This document shows, piece by piece, positions 42,419 through 53,896 of a DNA stretch of 64,000 bases (the stretch's first letter is position 1; every line of letters starts with the position of its first letter). Below the pieces are notes generated by a model. That model saw only the letters and a list, made by a program, of their open reading frames with translations, was not told the DNA's origin and did no database searches. Position numbers and translations under genes: made by a program. Source of the stretch: Candidatus Blautia intestinigallinarum (GTDB taxonomy: Bacteria; Bacillota; Clostridia; Lachnospirales; Lachnospiraceae); NCBI GenBank assembly GCA_019112635.1, contig DXIX01000002.1, positions 62,001 through 126,000 of the forward strand. Direction: 5' to 3'.

Positions 42419-43827
42419 ATGAACTTTGAGAAATTCTTTCACCTGAAAGAGAATCACACAAACGTGAAGACAGAGATTCTGGCCGGAATCACCACCTTTA
42501 TGACAATGGCCTACATTCTGGCCGTCAACCCGAATATTCTGTCTTCCACAGGTATGGATCACGGAGCCGTCTTCACCGCCACCGCTCTGGCAGCTTTCGT
42601 GGGAACTCTGTGCATGGCACTGTTTGCCAATTATCCCTTCGCCCTGGCACCAGGCATGGGACTGAACGCCTACTTCGCCTACACCGTCGTTCTGGGCATG
42701 GGATACAGCTGGAAAGTGGCACTTGCCGCCGTACTGGTTGAAGGTATTATTTTTATCATTCTTTCCCTGCTCAGTGTGCGGGAAGCCATCTTTGACGCCA
42801 TCCCCTATAACCTAAAAAAGCCGTCAGCGTTGGAATCGGTCTTTTCATCGCTTTTATCGGCCTTCAGAATGCGAAGATCGTCATCGGCGGTTCCACTTTG
42901 CTGAGCCTGTTTTCCATCGATGACTACAATGTAATCTTACAGCAAAATGCCACCGTCAACGGCACAGAATATGTAGCCTGCAGCATGAGCGACGCGGGAA
43001 TCACTGTACTTCTGGCTGTGATCGGCATCATTATCACTGGAATTCTGGTTGCCAAAAACATCAAAGGAAATATCCTCTGGGGAATTCTGATCACCTGGCT
43101 GCTCGGAATTATCTGCCAGTTCGCAGGGCTTTATGTTCCAAATGCTGCTCTTGGCTACTATTCCCTGCTTCCGGATTTCAGCAATGGAATCTCCATTCCA
43201 AGCCTGGCACCCATCTTCGCCCAGTTCAGCCTGGAAGGTGTTCCTATCCTGGAATTTATCGTCATCGTATTTGCCTTCCTGTTTGTGGATCTGTTTGACA
43301 CCCTCGGAACCCTGATTGGTGTCTCTTCCAAGGCGAATATGCTGGATGAAAACGGAAAACTTCCGAGAATCAAAGGTGCTTTGCTGGCAGACGCTGTGGC
43401 TACCACAGCCGGCGCAGTTCTTGGTACCTCCACCACAACTACTTTTGTGGAGAGTGCTTCCGGAGTCACGGAGGGCGGACGCACCGGTCTCACTGCTATC
43501 ACCACTGCCATCCTGTTTGGACTGTCCTTATTCCTGTCCCCGATCTTCCTGGCAATTCCTTCCTTTGCCACGGCTCCGGCCTTGGTAATCGTCGGATTCT
43601 ATATGCTGGGGGCTGTGACTGATATCAATCTTTCTGATCCGACAGAAGGAATCCCTGCCTTTATCTGCATTGCGGCAATGCCTTTCTTCTACAGCATATC
43701 AGAAGGTATCTCCATGGGAGTAATCTCCTATGCAGTCATCAACCTGCTGACCGGAAACCGGAAAAAGATCAGCATCGTCATGTATATCCTGGCAGTCCTG
43801 TTCATTTTAAAATATCTGCTGATCTGA
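42419..43827 (+). pseudogene. NCS2/AzgA-like purine permease, interrupted by a -1 frameshift at A AAA AAG (42814-42820)
   Basis: ORF1 MNFEKFFHLKENHTNVKTEILAGITTFMTMAYILAVNPNIL...IPYNLKK; -1 re-reading gives AVSVGIGLFIAFIGLQNAKIVIGGSTLLSLFSIDDY, continuous with ORF2 (42898..43827). Confidence 0.85.
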
Positions 43828-44925: not shown

Positions 44926-45194
44926 TCATATACCAGTGTCTGTGCCGGAAATTTCTGCCTCGCTGTATGCTCCCACTGCATTTTCTCCAGGATCTGACGT
45001 GGCGGAGAATACGCCCCACAACAGAACAGCAGCTATACCCAAGGCAAGCGCTGCAGACATACCCGATTGTATCTCTTTTTCTTCCCATCAGTTTCACCGG
45101 AAGAAAACTGCTCACCGTTTCCTTTTTCCTGATAAATTTTTCTCCCGTCATTTTTACTTTCCATACAATATTCCATATTCACATCCGCATTCAT
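44926..45194 (-). pseudogene. Small single-TM protein gene, apparently frameshifted in an A-tract (45076-45080), not in ORF track
   Basis: SD GAGGG before ATG 45194: MNADVNMEYCMESKNDGRKIYQEKGNGEQFSSGETDGKK; -1 shift continues KEIQSGMSAALALGIAAVLLWGVFSATSDPGENAVGAYSEAEISGTDTGI*; terminator just downstream. Confidence 0.45.
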
Positions 45195-45399
45195 TGTGCT
45201 TTCCCTCTTTCATTCCCGTTTCGATTCTTTTTTCTTATTCGCTCGGTTTTATAACTGAACCCCTGAGTTTTTGTATCGAATCGCTATTTATTTATATCAC
45301 AAAAGTTTTGAAAAAGAAAGCACCAATTTATGACAAGTCGTGCTCAGATATTTTTCTCAATTTTTTTAACTGTATTTTTACAAATCACCCAACTTATCC

Positions 45400-46113
45400 T
45401 CATGCCGGAAGCTCCCCAAGCAAATATTCGCGGAACTTCTCCTTAGCCTCATGATATTTTCCTCTGCTCACAGAGATCTTCTGACCACTGAACAGAAGTA
45501 TGTTTTCCACCGTAAAGTTCTCGATAAAATTCATGTTCACCAGATAACTTTTGTGGCATCTCAGAAAGTTTGACGGGAGCATCTGCTCCAGATCATCCAG
45601 CTTAATATAAACGGAACATCGCTTCTCTTCTCCCACAAAAGTCGCAACTCGTTTGTGGCTCTCCACATACTGCAATTCATTACATGGAATGCGGCAAAAC
45701 ATTCCTTTTTCCATCACAACAACCGCTTTCTCATCCTGGGGCGGAAGATGACGTTCTCCCCATCTGAGTGCTGCAAATAAAGCCTCTAAAGTGACAGGTT
45801 TATGGATAAAATAGGATGGTTCACTCTCAAAAATCTTCTCGATATCCTCTGGATTTTCACTCATGAATACAAGCGGTATGCTTCCACATTTCTTTCTGAT
45901 ATTTTCCGCTGCCTGAATCCCCTTGTGATCACCGAATGCCAGATCCATAAAGACGAGATCCGGCAAGGAACGAATGTCAAAAGCCATCGTCTGCAGATGT
46001 CTTTCTTCACAGAAGACCCGAATCTTTCCCTTTACTTCCGGTAAAGTCTTCAGAATGTGCAGAAATTTTCTTGCCTCATTTTCTTCGTTTTCACATATCC
46101 ATATCTTCTTCAT
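45400..46113 (-). CDS. LytTR-family response regulator (RR1)
   Basis: Receiver LVFMDLAFGDHKGIQAAENIR; LytTR domain ELQYVESHKRVATFV...FLRCHKSYLVNMNFIENF. Confidence 0.92.
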   Translation of the reverse strand: MKKIWICENEENEARKFLHILKTLPEVKGKIRVFCEERHLQTMAFDIRSLPDLVFMDLAFGDHKGIQAAENIRKKCGSIPLVFMSENPEDIEKIFESEPSYFIHKPVTLEALFAALRWGERHLPPQDEKAVVVMEKGMFCRIPCNELQYVESHKRVATFVGEEKRCSVYIKLDDLEQMLPSNFLRCHKSYLVNMNFIENFTVENILLFSGQKISVSRGKYHEAKEKFREYLLGELPA

Positions 46114-46161
46114 AACCATATTTCTATGCAATTCTCCCTATTTTATCCGATATTGAAGTTC

Positions 46162-46191
46162 ATTTTATCCCTCTGTACCACATCATTTCAA
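46162..46191 (-). promoter_or_regulatory. Putative RR1 promoter TTGAAA-N18-TAAAAT
   Basis: Read on - strand upstream of the RR1 start. Confidence 0.5.
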
Positions 46192-46311
46192 TAATTCTGC
46201 ACTAATAGACACTTTATTGTAACCAATAACCACTTTTTACAGATATTTGAATCGTAAAAATTCACTTTCAAAAGTGGCTTTCTTTTCCTTCCACATTCTT
46301 TTTTTTACATA

Positions 46312-46389
46312 AACATCCATTTTTTCGTCACTAATTGCCATTTTTTTAGTAATAGTTCCATTGTCTTATCTCGGCCAATTTCGTATAAT
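46312..46389 (+). promoter_or_regulatory. Putative LytTR-controlled promoter: three CCATT repeats at 21/20 bp spacing next to TTGTCT-N17-TATAAT
   Basis: CCATT at 46317, 46338, 46358; -35 TTGTCT 46361-46366; -10 TATAAT 46384-46389. Confidence 0.6.
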
Positions 46390-46440
46390 ATTGATGTATG
46401 TAAAATCATACCTATCTTGTTACGATTGAGGAGGCGTTTC

Positions 46441-47319
46441 ATGCGGGTAAAAAAATTTCTTTTCTATTTCTGTTTTCTTTTTTACCAGTTAATGATTCTT
46501 TGTCAAATTTATCTTCACCGCTACAAAGTGGGAAATTTCTGGGGAATGGTCTCCTCTTTGATTATTTTTGCCGCGATTGCGTGCATCGTTTTCTCTTTCT
46601 TTTCACTGGTCAAAGAAATACAATTAAATGCAAAAGCAGAAGTGGATCTCTACATCCTTCGTCAGCAGGAAGAACTTCAGTCCAAACAGACACAGCTTCT
46701 TCAGCACAGAAAAAAGGACACTCTCTGTTTTCAGAAAGAGATTCTGGATTCTCTGGAACAGCTCCAGGCATATCTCCAGGAAAAAGATATTGACAATGGC
46801 CAGCTTTGTTTCCAGCAATTGACAGAAAACTTTCAGCATGTCCGTTTCCGCCCCTGCTGTTCGGACAGTTTAATCAGTGCCATTTTGGACAGTAAAAAGA
46901 AAGCAGCCTCTGAAGATGGCATTCAGGTTACTTATCAGATCATACTTCCCAGAGAGTGTGAAATGATTCATACCTCATTGAACACCATCTTTTTTAATTT
47001 GTTGGATAATGGAATCGAAGCCTGCCGCCGTCAGAAGGCTTCGCACCCTTTTATACAGGTAACCTCAAAAATCAGTGGAGAATTTTTGATTATACATATG
47101 ATAAATTCCAAATCGGAGAATGAACGTTTCTCCCACAATACCGTGAAAAAAGACGCTCTCTCCCATGGGCTTGGACTTTCCATCATTGAAGAAATCACAC
47201 GGGAAAGAGACGGTTCCTGTGAGTGGATCGACCATGGCACCACCTTTGAATCGACCGTGATGCTTCGCTGCTCCAGCCTGCAGGAAACTCCGTCTGAAAC
47301 ATCCAAAGGAGCGAAATAA
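46441..47319 (+). CDS. Membrane-anchored GHKL ATPase protein (K1), histidine-kinase-like without evident H-box
   Basis: Two TMs, coiled coil, RFRPCCSDSLISAILDSKK, N-box TIFFNLLDNGIEAC, GLGLSIIEEI. Confidence 0.85.
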   Translation: MRVKKFLFYFCFLFYQLMILCQIYLHRYKVGNFWGMVSSLIIFAAIACIVFSFFSLVKEIQLNAKAEVDLYILRQQEELQSKQTQLLQHRKKDTLCFQKEILDSLEQLQAYLQEKDIDNGQLCFQQLTENFQHVRFRPCCSDSLISAILDSKKKAASEDGIQVTYQIILPRECEMIHTSLNTIFFNLLDNGIEACRRQKASHPFIQVTSKISGEFLIIHMINSKSENERFSHNTVKKDALSHGLGLSIIEEITRERDGSCEWIDHGTTFESTVMLRCSSLQETPSETSKGAK

Positions 47320-48165
47320 ATGAATCTTACCATTTTCAGCCACTGTATCATTCTGGCCTTTTACATTTGTGCCGTTACTTATTTTTACTGCCGGATCCTG
47401 ACCCCGAAAAAACACATTAAAAATCCTTATCTGGCCAGTGTCCTTCTCATGTCTCCGGACCTTCTGGTATGTATATATAACTACCACGATGTCACGTATA
47501 TTCACTGGCTGATGATTATGCTTCCTTTATTTTTTCTTTTTCAGGATTCCATCCGAAAGCGGATTACCTGCTATGTTACGGTTTATCTGATCCTGATGTT
47601 CAGTGAACTCTTTGGATTTTTTATCTCCTGTACGCTGATTTCTCTTACTCTTGGCAGAATTGTTCTGCCCGCCGAAGTGACAAACGGTCAGGCCATCCTG
47701 TCTTCTCTATGTATTATTTTTTCCGGCATGGTACTGATCTGGATAACTTTTTCTTATATTATCAAACTCTTTCAATACCTAAAGATGAACACCTTATTTT
47801 TGATCGGTTTGCCGGTTATCCTGTGCACCATCGTACATATCCTCGTAGAAGACAGCAGCTGGGGATATTTGATCATCGCTTTATTTATCCTTTGTTATTT
47901 CTTCTTACATAAAGGCTTCCAAAATATGAGAAAACAAGAAATCGAACGCCGTCAAAGAGAAAAGCAAAGCCTAATCATCGAAAAGCAGCTGGCTTTTTCA
48001 AAAGATCTGGAAAAAGAATACCGGGAGCTTCGAAAATGGAGCCATGACATTGACAATCACATTCTGGCTCTTTCTTATCTGATGCAAAAAGAAAAATATG
48101 AAGACTGTATCAATTATATAGAACACATAAAGGAGAATGCACATGTTAAAGATTGCAATTTGTGA
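47320..48165 (+). CDS. Multi-TM sensor protein with C-terminal His box but no ATPase domain (S1)
   Basis: Multiple TMs; C-terminus EYRELRKWSHDIDNHILALSYLMQKEKYEDCINYI, then stop. Confidence 0.8.
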   Translation: MNLTIFSHCIILAFYICAVTYFYCRILTPKKHIKNPYLASVLLMSPDLLVCIYNYHDVTYIHWLMIMLPLFFLFQDSIRKRITCYVTVYLILMFSELFGFFISCTLISLTLGRIVLPAEVTNGQAILSSLCIIFSGMVLIWITFSYIIKLFQYLKMNTLFLIGLPVILCTIVHILVEDSSWGYLIIALFILCYFFLHKGFQNMRKQEIERRQREKQSLIIEKQLAFSKDLEKEYRELRKWSHDIDNHILALSYLMQKEKYEDCINYIEHIKENAHVKDCNL

Positions 48166-48850
48166 GGATAATCCCATCCACGCACAACATCTTAGGGATT
48201 TACTGAAACTTCATATGGCTCAGCCCTATGAGACGGCAGTATTTGCCTCGGCTCAGCATTTCTGGGATACTTTCCATGAAAAACAGCAGTCTTACGATAT
48301 CGTTTTCATGGATATTGAACTGAGCACAGAAGCAGAGAACGGTATCTCGCTGGCTCAGAATATTAACCATGTATCTCCCAACACACAGATTATTTATATC
48401 AGTCAGTACCTGGAGTATGCCTCGCCGGTATATGAGACAAAGCATGTCTATTTTATCAGCAAAGAACAAGCTGATGCCTACCTTCCCAAAGCTTTGCAGA
48501 CAGCCATTCAGAACCTGACAGACATCCAAAATCAATATCTGCATTTCCGCCAGAAAAAAAGTCCCTGCCAGGTACTTCAAAGTGATATTCTGTACATGGA
48601 GCGAGTTCTCAGAACCACTTCCATTTACACTCGAACCCAGGAGAACCCTTTCATCACCGCTGAGAATCTCTCTTCTCTGCTGGAACGTCTCGCCCCGGTC
48701 TTTGTCTTGTGTCACAGAAGTTATGCTGTGAACCTGAAAGCCGTCCGAACGTTCAACCGGGAACAGATCATCCTCTTTGATGGACGGGAAGTTCCCATGG
48801 GGCGGACTCACTATGAACAATTCAAGAAAGATTTCGCGAAATTAAGCTGA
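48143..48850 (+). CDS. LytTR-family response regulator (RR2)
   Basis: MLKIAICEDNPIHAQHL; YDIVFMDIEL; LytTR VFVLCHRSYAVNLKAVRTF. Confidence 0.93.
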   Translation: MLKIAICEDNPIHAQHLRDLLKLHMAQPYETAVFASAQHFWDTFHEKQQSYDIVFMDIELSTEAENGISLAQNINHVSPNTQIIYISQYLEYASPVYETKHVYFISKEQADAYLPKALQTAIQNLTDIQNQYLHFRQKKSPCQVLQSDILYMERVLRTTSIYTRTQENPFITAENLSSLLERLAPVFVLCHRSYAVNLKAVRTFNREQIILFDGREVPMGRTHYEQFKKDFAKLS

Positions 48851-48861
48851 GGTGTCAATCT

Positions 48862-49728
48862 ATGAAACGTAAGAAAATTGCATTTTTCTTCTTTTTTTCC
48901 GTTTATCAAATCGGAACTTTAGTCATGATGAGTATTCAAAAATATTCTCCTGAAAACTTCTCCTACACCATCATGATGATATTTGTATACTGTCTTGGGC
49001 AATTCCCCTCTCTTCTTCTCTTTTTCTCACTGGTAAAAGAAATCTTTCAGGACGCAAAATTAGAGGCTGATTTGAAGATGCTGGAACAGCAGCAGGCTCT
49101 CCGGGAAAGACAATTACTCGCACTGCAAAAAAGGAAAAATGCTACCCAGAATTTTCAGGAGAAGATTACCAGGAAACTGGCCTATCTCGACCATTGTCTG
49201 GAAGAAAAAAATTATGAGGAAGCCTTGTCCTGTTATCAGAAATTATCTCTGGATTTTCAGAAAGTGCGTTTTCGTCCCTGCTGTTCAGACAGCCTGATCA
49301 ATGCCATTTTGGACAGTAAGAAACTCACCGCACAGGAGCATCATATTCAGGTAAATTACCAGATTTTCCTGCCGGAAGAAATGGAACTGATCTCCTCCTC
49401 TTTGAGCTGTATCTTCTTCAATCTTATGGATAACGGAATCGAAGCCTGTCTCAAATCCGGCAATTCCCCGCTTTTCATACAGTTATCCACCCGGGTAAAC
49501 GGAGACTTCATCATTATCCACATGATAAACTCCAAAAGCTGTGAAGAGTCCTTCAACCATAAAACCTCAAAAAACGATTCTCTCGCTCATGGGTACGGAC
49601 TTTCTATCATTGAGGAGATTGCCAGGGACAACGACGGTTCCTGCGAATGGACCGATCACGGAACTACCTTTGAGTCTACTGTCATGATCCGTGGCCGTAC
49701 ACAGGAATCGCCCGCCGGCAAAATATGA
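48862..49728 (+). CDS. Membrane-anchored GHKL ATPase protein (K2), paralog of K1
   Basis: RFRPCCSDSLINAILDSKK, CIFFNLMDNGIEAC, GYGLSIIEEIARDNDGSCEWTDHGTTFEST. Confidence 0.85.
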   Translation: MKRKKIAFFFFFSVYQIGTLVMMSIQKYSPENFSYTIMMIFVYCLGQFPSLLLFFSLVKEIFQDAKLEADLKMLEQQQALRERQLLALQKRKNATQNFQEKITRKLAYLDHCLEEKNYEEALSCYQKLSLDFQKVRFRPCCSDSLINAILDSKKLTAQEHHIQVNYQIFLPEEMELISSSLSCIFFNLMDNGIEACLKSGNSPLFIQLSTRVNGDFIIIHMINSKSCEESFNHKTSKNDSLAHGYGLSIIEEIARDNDGSCEWTDHGTTFESTVMIRGRTQESPAGKI

Positions 49729-49759
49729 CCACCTGATTTCACTTACGGAGGATTTTCCC

Positions 49760-50455
49760 ATGACTATTTATTCCATCAGCTATACCTTGACTTCTTTTTT
49801 CTACCTGTGGGCTCTCACCCATATTTATTTTAGTTTTCTCTCACCCAAACAGACCATTTCACATCCCCGGCTTCTCTGTTGTCTTCTCCTGTCTCCCATG
49901 GTTGTTCTGACGATGATCCAGCACTATTATCTGCGCATCTCCGTCTGGCTGATCATGCTGTTTCCATTGTTTCTCTTTCTGGATTCCTGGAGAAGGAGAA
50001 TCGCCTGCTATGTGACTGCTTATCTGATCTTGCTGCTCAATGAATCTATTTGCTACGCCCTGGCCTATATGGCTGCCTTCAGTATCACAAAGCAGGATTA
50101 TCAATGGATTTCCCCCATCGATTCCATGCCCCGCGCAGTTCTTCCCACAGCCATTCTCACCATTCTGACGGGTATCCCTCTGGTACTCATACTCGTTCAT
50201 TATGGAAAAGTCTGGTTCTGCTATATAAAAACTACCACTCTGCTTATGATCGGCCTTCCCATTGTGCTGAGTCTTATTCAGGAAATTCCCATATGTTCCG
50301 GAAAGATCTCTCACTTATTTATTATTCCTCTATATTCCCTGTGTATTTTCTCGCTGATTGCAGGTTTTCGCAGAATGCACCGCCAGGAACTGCTCCGAAA
50401 AGAACAGTATCCACAGACAAGCCAGTATATCAAATCAATATTAAAACATTTATAG
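49760..50455 (+). CDS. Multi-TM protein paralogous to S1/S3 but lacking the His-box segment (S2)
   Basis: Shared WRRRIACYVTAYLILLLNES and GFRRMHRQELLRKEQ, then SQYIKSILKHL*. Confidence 0.8.
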   Translation: MTIYSISYTLTSFFYLWALTHIYFSFLSPKQTISHPRLLCCLLLSPMVVLTMIQHYYLRISVWLIMLFPLFLFLDSWRRRIACYVTAYLILLLNESICYALAYMAAFSITKQDYQWISPIDSMPRAVLPTAILTILTGIPLVLILVHYGKVWFCYIKTTTLLMIGLPIVLSLIQEIPICSGKISHLFIIPLYSLCIFSLIAGFRRMHRQELLRKEQYPQTSQYIKSILKHL

Positions 50456-50464
50456 GAGGTTCCC

Positions 50465-51298
50465 ATGGATTTAATCACCTTAAGTTATCTCATATCCTGC
50501 GTTTACTATGTCGGAGCAGTCTCTTACCTCTACAGCAATCTTATGACTGCCAAGCCATCCATCAAGCGTCCTTTTATCCTGACCGCCCTCCTTTTGACTC
50601 CTATGTTTGTGGTTATTCTGATCGACTATCACTATATTGGAATGTTTTTATGGATCTTTATCATTTTCCCCTTATTTCTCTATCAGGATCCATGGAAAAA
50701 ACGTTTCACCTGCTATATCACTATCTATCTGATTATGCTGGTCAATGAATTATTAGCCGTGATGGTTTCTTATTTCCTGATCTCGCTCCTGTCGGAAAAG
50801 GGAACCGTCTTAACAAGCCTAAACAGTTCCCCGATTACCGCCATTCCCACTTCCATACTGACTGTCCTTTTTGGAACTTTCCTGACACGGCTTTTTGTAA
50901 CCTCTTTAAAACCTTGGTTTTCCCATATCCATTCCAGTACTCTTGCCCTTCTGGGATTACCTCTGGTTATTGTCACTCTCATGGAAATTCCTTACTTTGT
51001 CAACTCCTTTTCACCGCTTTTGATCGCACTGTTTTTTCCACCGTGCTATGCCTTGCTTCTCTTTGGCTTTCGCAGAATGCACCTTCAGGAATTGCTTCGA
51101 AATCAACGCTTCAATCGTCTTCTGCTCATAGAGAAACAGATCCTCTACTCCAAAGAATTAGAAAAAGAATACCAGAAGCTCCGGCGATGGAATCACGACA
51201 TCGACAATCACTTTCTCGCCCTTTCCTATCTGCTGCAGCATGAAAAATATGAGGAAAGTTCTGCCTATATCAAAGACATTCTGCAGAAGAAAAACTGA
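50465..51298 (+). CDS. Multi-TM sensor protein with C-terminal His box but no ATPase domain (S3)
   Basis: EKEYQKLRRWNHDIDNHFLALSYLLQHEKYEESSAYIKDILQKKN*. Confidence 0.8.
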   Translation: MDLITLSYLISCVYYVGAVSYLYSNLMTAKPSIKRPFILTALLLTPMFVVILIDYHYIGMFLWIFIIFPLFLYQDPWKKRFTCYITIYLIMLVNELLAVMVSYFLISLLSEKGTVLTSLNSSPITAIPTSILTVLFGTFLTRLFVTSLKPWFSHIHSSTLALLGLPLVIVTLMEIPYFVNSFSPLLIALFFPPCYALLLFGFRRMHLQELLRNQRFNRLLLIEKQILYSKELEKEYQKLRRWNHDIDNHFLALSYLLQHEKYEESSAYIKDILQKKN

Positions 51299-51350: not shown

Positions 51351-51437
51351 ATATTATATATAATCTGTTATCTGCATTTTGACAACAGACTCATGCCTTG
51401 TCAGGCAAGTTTTGAATTTGGGGTAAAGGGGAAAATT

Positions 51438-52823
51438 ATGAAAGTAAAAGAAATGTTTAATCCATCCGACATGACCGTCGGAAAACCATGGGAAAAGATT
51501 GTAATTTTCACAGTTCCCATGTTAATCGGCAACATTGCCCAACAGTTATACAATACCGTTGACAGTATTGTGGTTGGAAATTTTATCGGTGACAATGCAC
51601 TGGCCGCTGTGGGCAGTGCCAATCCCATCTTAAATCTTCTTCTGGTCTTATTCATGGGAATCTCTGTAGGCGCCAATGTCATGGTTTCCCAGTATTTCGG
51701 TGCCCGTCAGAGGGAAGAACTTTCCAAAACCATCGGCACCTGTATCACTCTGACAGCCATTGCCACTGTGATTATCATGGCTGTGGGCTCTTTGATCACC
51801 ATGCCGCTGCTGCGTTTTTTAAATACACCGGAATCTATCATTGACTGGTGCGCCTCCTATCTGCGGATTCTGCTCCTGGGAATCGGAGGTGTGGCATATT
51901 ACAATATTTTGTGCGGAATCTTAAGAGGTATCGGCGATTCTTTTTCCGCTCTCCTCTATCTTTTGATCGCCACCGTCATCAATACCATTCTGGATGTCTG
52001 GTTCGTCGCAGGACTGAACATGGGCGTGGCAGGCGCTGCCCTGGCCACAGTCATCGCCCAGGTCACTTCCAGTATCCTCTGTCTGTGGAAACTTTGCCGT
52101 ATGACACAATATTTTGATCTGAAAATTTGTTATCTGAAGCCAGGCCGCAGATACAGTATTGATATGATCCGCCTCGGTCTCCCTTCAGGGCTCACCCAGG
52201 CAATTTTCTCCATGGCATTGGTGGTTGTCCAGTCTTTGACCAATAGTTTCGGGGAGATGGTAATTGCGGCAAACGTCATTTTGATGCGTGTAGACGGTTT
52301 TGCCATGATGCCGAATTTTTCCTTCGGAACTGCTATGACCACCTACGCCGGACAGAATGTGGGGGCCAACCGTTATGACCGTGTCACCCAGGGTGCCCGC
52401 CAGGGAACTTTTATCGCTGCCGGGACTTCCGCCGTGATTACTCTTCTGATCCTTCTGTTCGGCAAACCTCTCATGGGAATCTTCACCGATACCCGGGAAC
52501 TTGTCAACTTAAGCTATCAGCTGATGATGATTCTCGCCGTGGGATACATTGCCATGGGTGTGACACAGAGTCTGTCCGGCGTTATGCGCGGTGCCGGTGA
52601 CACTATGACTCCCATGTGGATTTCCATTGTGACTACCGTTATTATCCGGATTCCTATTGCTTATGGAATTTCCTATCTCACAAGGACGCCAGAACTTCCT
52701 CACGGGCATTACACCTGTGTGTGGGTATCCCTCCTGATCTCCTGGGTACTTGGCGCACTAATTACCACCTTCTTTTACCGGAGAGGCAATTGGAAGACAA
52801 AAGGATTGCATCAAAACAATTAA
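51438..52823 (+). CDS. MATE-family efflux transporter
   Basis: PMLIGNIAQQLYNTVDSIVVGNFIGDNALAAVGSANPI; twelve TMs. Confidence 0.95.
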   Translation: MKVKEMFNPSDMTVGKPWEKIVIFTVPMLIGNIAQQLYNTVDSIVVGNFIGDNALAAVGSANPILNLLLVLFMGISVGANVMVSQYFGARQREELSKTIGTCITLTAIATVIIMAVGSLITMPLLRFLNTPESIIDWCASYLRILLLGIGGVAYYNILCGILRGIGDSFSALLYLLIATVINTILDVWFVAGLNMGVAGAALATVIAQVTSSILCLWKLCRMTQYFDLKICYLKPGRRYSIDMIRLGLPSGLTQAIFSMALVVVQSLTNSFGEMVIAANVILMRVDGFAMMPNFSFGTAMTTYAGQNVGANRYDRVTQGARQGTFIAAGTSAVITLLILLFGKPLMGIFTDTRELVNLSYQLMMILAVGYIAMGVTQSLSGVMRGAGDTMTPMWISIVTTVIIRIPIAYGISYLTRTPELPHGHYTCVWVSLLISWVLGALITTFFYRRGNWKTKGLHQNN

Positions 52824-52933: not shown

Positions 52934-53896
52934 TCATTTGCTCACATTCTCTTTTTCTAAAACCTTCTGAAGTTCTTCCACAGAATATCCTCTTTGAATT
53001 AACTGCAGAATTTTTCTTCGTTCTTCCGCTCTTCCTTCGTCTTTTCCCTCCAGCTTTCCTTCCAACTTTCCTTCTGTTTTCCCTTCGGCTTTTCCTTCTT
53101 CTCTTGCATCCATAAGCATATCATTCAATCCTTTAAACATATTCACCGTCCCCTTTCCTGCTGTCTGTCTATTTTTCTTTAACTTTTCCAATTCTTTGTT
53201 CTCTGAAAACACGCTGATCAAATCATAGGCTTCCTCTGCTAATTTTGATAAGCCTTCTTTCTCTTTAACAGCAAATCTTCGCAGTTTTTCTTTATCATCC
53301 GCATTTTGCAGAAAGCCAAACACTAATCTCAAATCTGTCTGAAATCGCTCTATGTAAGGATAACTTCCCTCCTCAATCAAATATAATGGATAGTCGGCAA
53401 CAAATTTCCGCATCTGCGGCGGCAAAGCATCCAGTTCCAGCAATTCCTGAAGACTCCTGGCCCCATCCCAGTGTTTGCCAAAATATAAAACGATGGTTAT
53501 CACCGGCCAAAAACGATCTGCCTTAGAAATCCCAGACAAAAATTCCTTCCCCGATAAGTCCTTTTTCTTCCGATGTTCTCTCCTTTTGTCTTGAAGCTGC
53601 TGCTCATACCTTCCCACGTCATATTCCATTACCCGAATTGGCATTGTATAATCCACCTGACTTTGCTCTTCCACACTAATCACCACAAACTGTGCCTTAT
53701 AAACCACTTTTCGGGTTAGATCCTGATATCTCCGAAAATATTTCTTCTCTCCTGTATAGATCTGTGTGCTATCCATCTCCTGGACATCCTCCGGATGAAT
53801 AACCATTTCCCCTTCAAAGCAATGTCCATTAATCAGGTCCGCGAAACCGCTTGGATCTCTCAGATAAATCGCTGCCATCACATCTTTTTTCGACAT
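52934..53896 (-). CDS. Rpn family recombination-promoting nuclease / PD-(D/E)XK putative transposase
   Basis: LINGHCFEGEMVIHPEDV...DLTRKVV...QFVVISVEEQSQVDYTMPIRVMEYDVGRYEQQ; EGKxEGK repeats; C-terminal RRKILQLIQRGYSVEELQKVLEKE. Confidence 0.8.
   Translation of the reverse strand: MSKKDVMAAIYLRDPSGFADLINGHCFEGEMVIHPEDVQEMDSTQIYTGEKKYFRRYQDLTRKVVYKAQFVVISVEEQSQVDYTMPIRVMEYDVGRYEQQLQDKRREHRKKKDLSGKEFLSGISKADRFWPVITIVLYFGKHWDGARSLQELLELDALPPQMRKFVADYPLYLIEEGSYPYIERFQTDLRLVFGFLQNADDKEKLRRFAVKEKEGLSKLAEEAYDLISVFSENKELEKLKKNRQTAGKGTVNMFKGLNDMLMDAREEGKAEGKTEGKLEGKLEGKDEGRAEERRKILQLIQRGYSVEELQKVLEKENVSK

Follow-up and report, generated by a model that had tools for sequence, protein, structure and literature searches.

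The window (the whole 64,000-nucleotide stretch of DNA that was analyzed) comes from a 2.1 Mb draft genome of the family Lachnospiraceae that is 75.5% complete and carries, at positions 45400 to 51298, a gene cluster in the order RR1(−) <> K1-S1-RR2-K2-S2-S3(+) (Table 1). All genes of this order, which had been given in a preliminary description, are present; the span of 44926 to 51298 reported there holds from 45400 onward, but there is no system gene between 44926 and 45399. For K1, the start preceded by a good ribosome site lies at ATG 46441, which corrects the earlier assignment, and S2, which had been left undescribed, is a sensor whose His segment has been deleted in frame. A ribosome site precedes each plus-strand gene of the K1-S3 cluster. 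K1 is 52% identical to K2, and S1 is about 41% identical to S3, in agreement with the earlier claim that the unit is present twice.

Table 1. Features of the K-S cluster and its regulators, numbered from the first letter of the window.
Feature	Position	Strand	Evidence
RR1, LytTR response regulator, divergent from K1	45400..46113	-	Pfam LytTR 3e-18, Response_reg 1e-8
Promoter-like site TTGTCT-17-TATAAT, 5' of K1	46361..46389	+	Consensus match only; such sites in the region are at the shuffled expectation
K1, two TM helices, coiled coil, His-less DHp-like hairpin, GHKL ATPase	46441..47319	+	HATPase_c_5 3e-15
K1 Lys99 codon, acceptor-His column of ordinary kinases	46735..46737	+	Alignment
S1, multi-TM sensor and DHp hairpin with His, without ATPase	47320..48165	+	DHp profile 2.8e-14; no Pfam ATPase match
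S1 His242 codon of HDIDNH	48043..48045	+	Alignment
RR2, LytTR response regulator, overlaps S1 end	48137..48850	+	Pfam LytTR 2e-14, Response_reg 4e-13
K2, K1 paralog	48862..49728	+	52% identity to K1; HATPase_c_5 6.5e-14; AF2 best match S. aureus AgrC kinase 6e52
K2 Glu100 codon, acceptor column	49159..49161	+	Alignment
S2, S-family sensor, in-frame deletion of His-bearing DHp segment	49760..50455	+	Ribosome site before ATG 49760
S3, multi-TM sensor and DHp hairpin with His, without ATPase	50465..51298	+	DHp profile 4.7e-14; AF2 model stops just past second DHp helix
S3 His244 codon of HDIDNH	51194..51196	+	Alignment

The HMM search that had been proposed for K and S placed K1 and K2 above the Pfam HATPase_c_5 cut-off and returned no ATPase match for S1, S2, or S3, while SPOB_a matched S3 weakly (E 4e-4, 20.4 bits) and S1 at 13.3 bits, below the curated Pfam cut-off of 28.1. 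No Pfam match to the CheA domains (P1-P5) was obtained for the cluster proteins. A DHp profile based solely on ordinary kinases of the His-bearing GHKL type, with no S sequence among them, detected the large S proteins with values of 4e-7 to 1e-17. S1 and S3 end in a His box without an ATPase, as had been described, but they continue for 39 and 33 residues past the His rather than the roughly 25 to 35 first given. K carries two TM helices and the GHKL ATPase ascribed to it, but it is more than an ATPase, as it also keeps a His-less DHp-like hairpin.

For 16 K proteins and 45 full-length GHKL kinases from related genomes, the DHp-ATPase region was aligned with the C-termini of 21 S proteins. 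The acceptor column holds a His in none of the 16 K proteins, in all 21 S proteins, and in 42 of the 45 full-length kinases, and each of the three full-length kinases without it has a separate DHp-His partner. Pfam, the DHp profile, and the alignment thus bear out the claims that K1 and K2 have a GHKL ATPase and no acceptor His and that the ATPase and the His box lie on separate proteins. In the K protein of locus L118, a His stands one position away from the acceptor column, and the residue after it is not acidic. A Gln stands directly before the lost His in 13 of the 16 K proteins (Gln98 in K1, Gln99 in K2). Among 15 K-S pairs, the S residues conserved at 87% or more are Met1 and, in the His-box region, Y234, R238, H242, D243, H247, L254, and Y266; nearly all conserved K residues are in the ATPase domain or the linker directly before it, and the K ATPase residues are kept in 14 to 15 of 15. 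K and S distances correlate strongly (r 0.94), with common descent as a confounder.

K2 and S3 were modeled with AF2 as single chains from shallow alignments of 6 to 7 rows (mean pLDDT 79 and 77, respectively). The K2 model consists of a TM helix, two further helices (a long one at 30-114 and one at 118-135), and the ATPase fold, and the S3 model of a TM bundle and a long helix (183-258) with a helix (262-275) at its end; in both, the acceptor position lies 14 residues before the hairpin turn. The best PDB match of the K2 model was the cytoplasmic kinase of S. aureus AgrC (6e52), and the S3 model had no PDB match at E 0.001.

The gene order and the downstream genes rule out a frameshift or read-through, because RR2 overlaps the S1 end and 94 bp separate S3 from the MATE transporter gene downstream (51393-52823). 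The MATE gene could, as a guess, be a target of the system; a MATE gene is also beside the cluster of a Blautia MAG (L076 7940-9259), on the opposite strand there. A mobile origin of the cluster was rejected, since S1 had no plasmid match and the phage matches of K2 were weak and partial only. For an Agr peptide system, a search for AgrB gave no match in the 75.5%-complete genome, consistent with the initial failure to recognize an agr signal gene. The RR1-K1 intergenic region, searched for LytTR binding repeats, contains short repeats only, which are indistinguishable from chance. Elsewhere in the window, a Xan_ur_permease family gene (42419-43827) is broken into two overlapping frames, either a pseudogene or an assembly error, and a YhgA-like putative transposase lies at 52934-53896 on the minus strand, with Transposase_31 just above the cut-off. 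Seven further HATPase_c_5 proteins are encoded elsewhere in the genome.

The gene-neighborhood survey that had been proposed revealed that K and S form a conserved adjacent pair: the complementary pair is present at 17 loci including the window (fused at one), each cluster also contains a LytTR-type regulator, and the complementary split recurs in 16 genomes besides this one, among them Anaerostipes sp. MSJ-23. Eight loci were found with K as the query (G105, G243, G111, G270, G241, G150, G696, and G690) and eight with S (G749, G715, G735, G750, G747, G718, the Blautia sp. SUG67 MAG, and the Eubacteriales S27M_St_58 MAG), and the partner was present or fused at 8/8 in each set. The count of 17 leaves out several short GHKL matches of about 240 aa. 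The locus orders include RR-K-S, S-K-RR, K-S-RR-S, and RR-S-K. For the controls, 21 of 22 His-bearing kinase loci were without an orphan DHp protein (at control loci L153 and L165, the His pattern missed the box, and the alignment shows the His). The locus counts are not independent events, since the positive loci were found by mutual similarity, and the Fisher p of 3.5e-10 for split vs control loci is descriptive only, given the shared descent of the loci and their retrieval by similarity. Judged from sequence comparison, with the complementary pair at 17 loci, the K/S split is not local decay. Some copies do decay: the His is missing from S2, and in G105 the second S gene (L069 6961-7848), which is split into two ORFs, is probably broken. 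In G688 (L132 6321-6791), a 156-aa ORF after a LytTR regulator contains pieces that resemble the S His box and the K hairpin and is apparently a decayed split system.

Other arrangements of the two halves were found among these loci. G747 encodes S and K in one ORF, of which only the S half has the His; from the S His-box helix to the first TM of K, the sole in-frame start is a GTG inside the S hairpin, and since no in-frame K start is left, this is a real fusion and not a misread overlap. His-less kinases of full-length size (two in G241 and one in G150) adjoin a small protein (148 and 165 aa) with 2 to 3 TM segments and, at its end, a DHp-His hairpin (DHp profile 8e-5 and 2e-5 for G241 and G150, respectively), and G241 represents a reverse split in which the large sensor is kept on the ATPase chain. 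The G150 ORF (L130 6339-7631) has a flagellin-like N-terminus that runs directly into the C-terminus of the His-less kinase and may be a contig chimera. Both chains of G111 have a full sensor, and the alignment of the two spans 279 residues, with the S His opposite a non-His residue of K without a gap. G338, the sole control with an orphan DHp protein, encodes an intact kinase and, after it, a 45% identical copy that lacks the ATPase, plausibly and even likely an evolutionary intermediate at the first step of the split.

The ATPase of a histidine kinase acts on a His in the DHp bundle, often across the dimer. We hypothesize that K and S each contribute one half of a heterodimeric histidine kinase of the AgrC class, in which the K ATPase phosphorylates the S His and the S His feeds the LytTR regulators, a reading that we regard as probable. 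In its favor are the allocation of the parts to two chains, the conservation of the complementary split, the co-occurrence of K and S, and the one natural fusion. S would be the membrane sensor with the phospho-acceptor His on its DHp hairpin, and K would provide the GHKL ATPase on a second, His-less DHp-like hairpin. At the membrane, the two hairpins would come together in a heterodimer of unequal chains, one contributing the working His and the other the working ATPase; K would phosphorylate the S His in trans, and the phosphate would then pass to RR1/RR2. Since K keeps its hairpin, such a heterodimer is likelier than a kinase with a free substrate.

S might instead be a MaeK-like receptor that receives the phosphate on its His from another full-length GHKL kinase of the genome or from a small-molecule phosphodonor, with K acting independently. 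The seven further HATPase_c_5 proteins are in line with this proposal, as is MaeK of Lactobacillus casei, a sensor kinase described as having no working ATP domain (PMC5457438); however, K lies beside S at every examined split locus, is fused to it in one genome, and keeps its ATPase residues throughout, and we consider another donor unlikely. That K is an ATP-binding pseudokinase, which regulates S (e.g., as a phosphatase switch toward the regulators) without phosphorylating it, appears very unlikely: although S keeps the HD/E-x-x-N/T-type motif tied to phosphatase activity in bifunctional kinases (as cited in PMC3591291), S would be left without a phosphate source despite its invariant His, and the conservation of the K ATPase residues in 14 to 15 of 15 pairs also speaks against it.

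We would give hardly any weight to the possibility that the genes are decaying duplicates or an assembly artifact, for although the draft is 75.5% complete and S2 has lost its His segment, the complementary split recurs in 16 other genomes, including that of Anaerostipes sp. MSJ-23, and ribosome sites precede every plus-strand gene. A phosphorelay, with S as a Spo0B-type phosphotransferase between a receiver domain and a LytTR regulator, is the most improbable reading of all; the weak SPOB_a match of S3 (E 4e-4) is compatible with it, but the clusters showed no free-standing receiver protein, and S, unlike Spo0B, has a membrane sensor and stops after the DHp hairpin.

Split histidine kinases are a known concept (PMC3591291), so the description of this system as undescribed needs qualifying; an AgrC-class or GHKL version was not found published among open-licence papers. 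The published split kinase CheA3/CheA4 of Rhodobacter sphaeroides (PMC3591291) likewise combines an ATPase chain lacking the acceptor His with a His chain lacking the ATPase, which together act as one kinase, but it has the CheA architecture and belongs to a cytoplasmic chemotaxis cluster, whereas the system here consists of membrane proteins of the AgrC class, each chain with its own DHp-like hairpin. Modeling of CheA3/CheA4 predicts that switch-like responses are possible for split bifunctional kinases, and the HATPase domain is absent from 3.66% of HisKA proteins in SMART (PMC3591291). PilL-N/PilL-C (Hik36/Hik43) of Synechocystis has also been described as a split kinase, by two-hybrid (PMC7656254), but is a split CheA homolog. 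MaeK of Lactobacillales is, like S, a receptor with a DHp and without a working ATP domain (PMC5457438), but its degenerate ATP domain is still there, and no partner ATPase is known for it. The K-S system resembles AgrC-class (HPK10, GHKL/HATPase_c_5) kinases in its HATPase_c_5 domain, multi-TM sensor, HDxxNH-type box, LytTR partners alongside (RR1 and RR2), and the PDB fold match of K2. It differs in that sensor, acceptor His, and ATPase are not on one chain: sensor and His are on one polypeptide and the ATPase on another, encoded together, as in split kinases. In addition, the 75.5%-complete genome gave no AgrB match. Phosphorylation across the dimer is itself described for AgrC by George Cisar et al. 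2009, who report asymmetric dimers in which each His is phosphorylated by the opposite ATPase (as cited in PMC6066662); the study concerns AgrC dimers rather than a natural gene split.

A tree computed with IQ-TREE from 64 ATPase domains (146 columns; moderate backbone support and several long branches) placed the 15 short K proteins in one group (95/86) and four other His-less kinases in another (93/77), with the His-bearing kinases G291, G281, and G338 between both His-less groups, inside a 24-row group (91/84). Because His-bearing kinases separate the His-less groups, the simplest reading suggests that the acceptor His was lost at least two times, each time with a DHp partner. The intermediates indicate that the split probably arose by duplication: an ordinary kinase would have been duplicated in tandem, the ATPase lost in one copy and the His in the other, and, in a last step, the redundant sensor would have been lost on one chain. 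We lean toward the view that these proteins constitute an obligately heterodimeric AgrC-class kinase family that evolved at least twice from homodimeric ones, with duplicated intermediate, split, and re-fused forms in living Lachnospiraceae.

If the pair works as proposed, it would be a naturally asymmetric kinase in which sensing and catalysis are separately mutable, swappable, and titratable, and both cross-dimer phosphorylation and control by the sensor of the ATPase on the other chain would be directly testable. If the proposed evolutionary history is true, the duplicated, split, and re-fused forms would be a natural record of the passage from homodimer to heterodimer.
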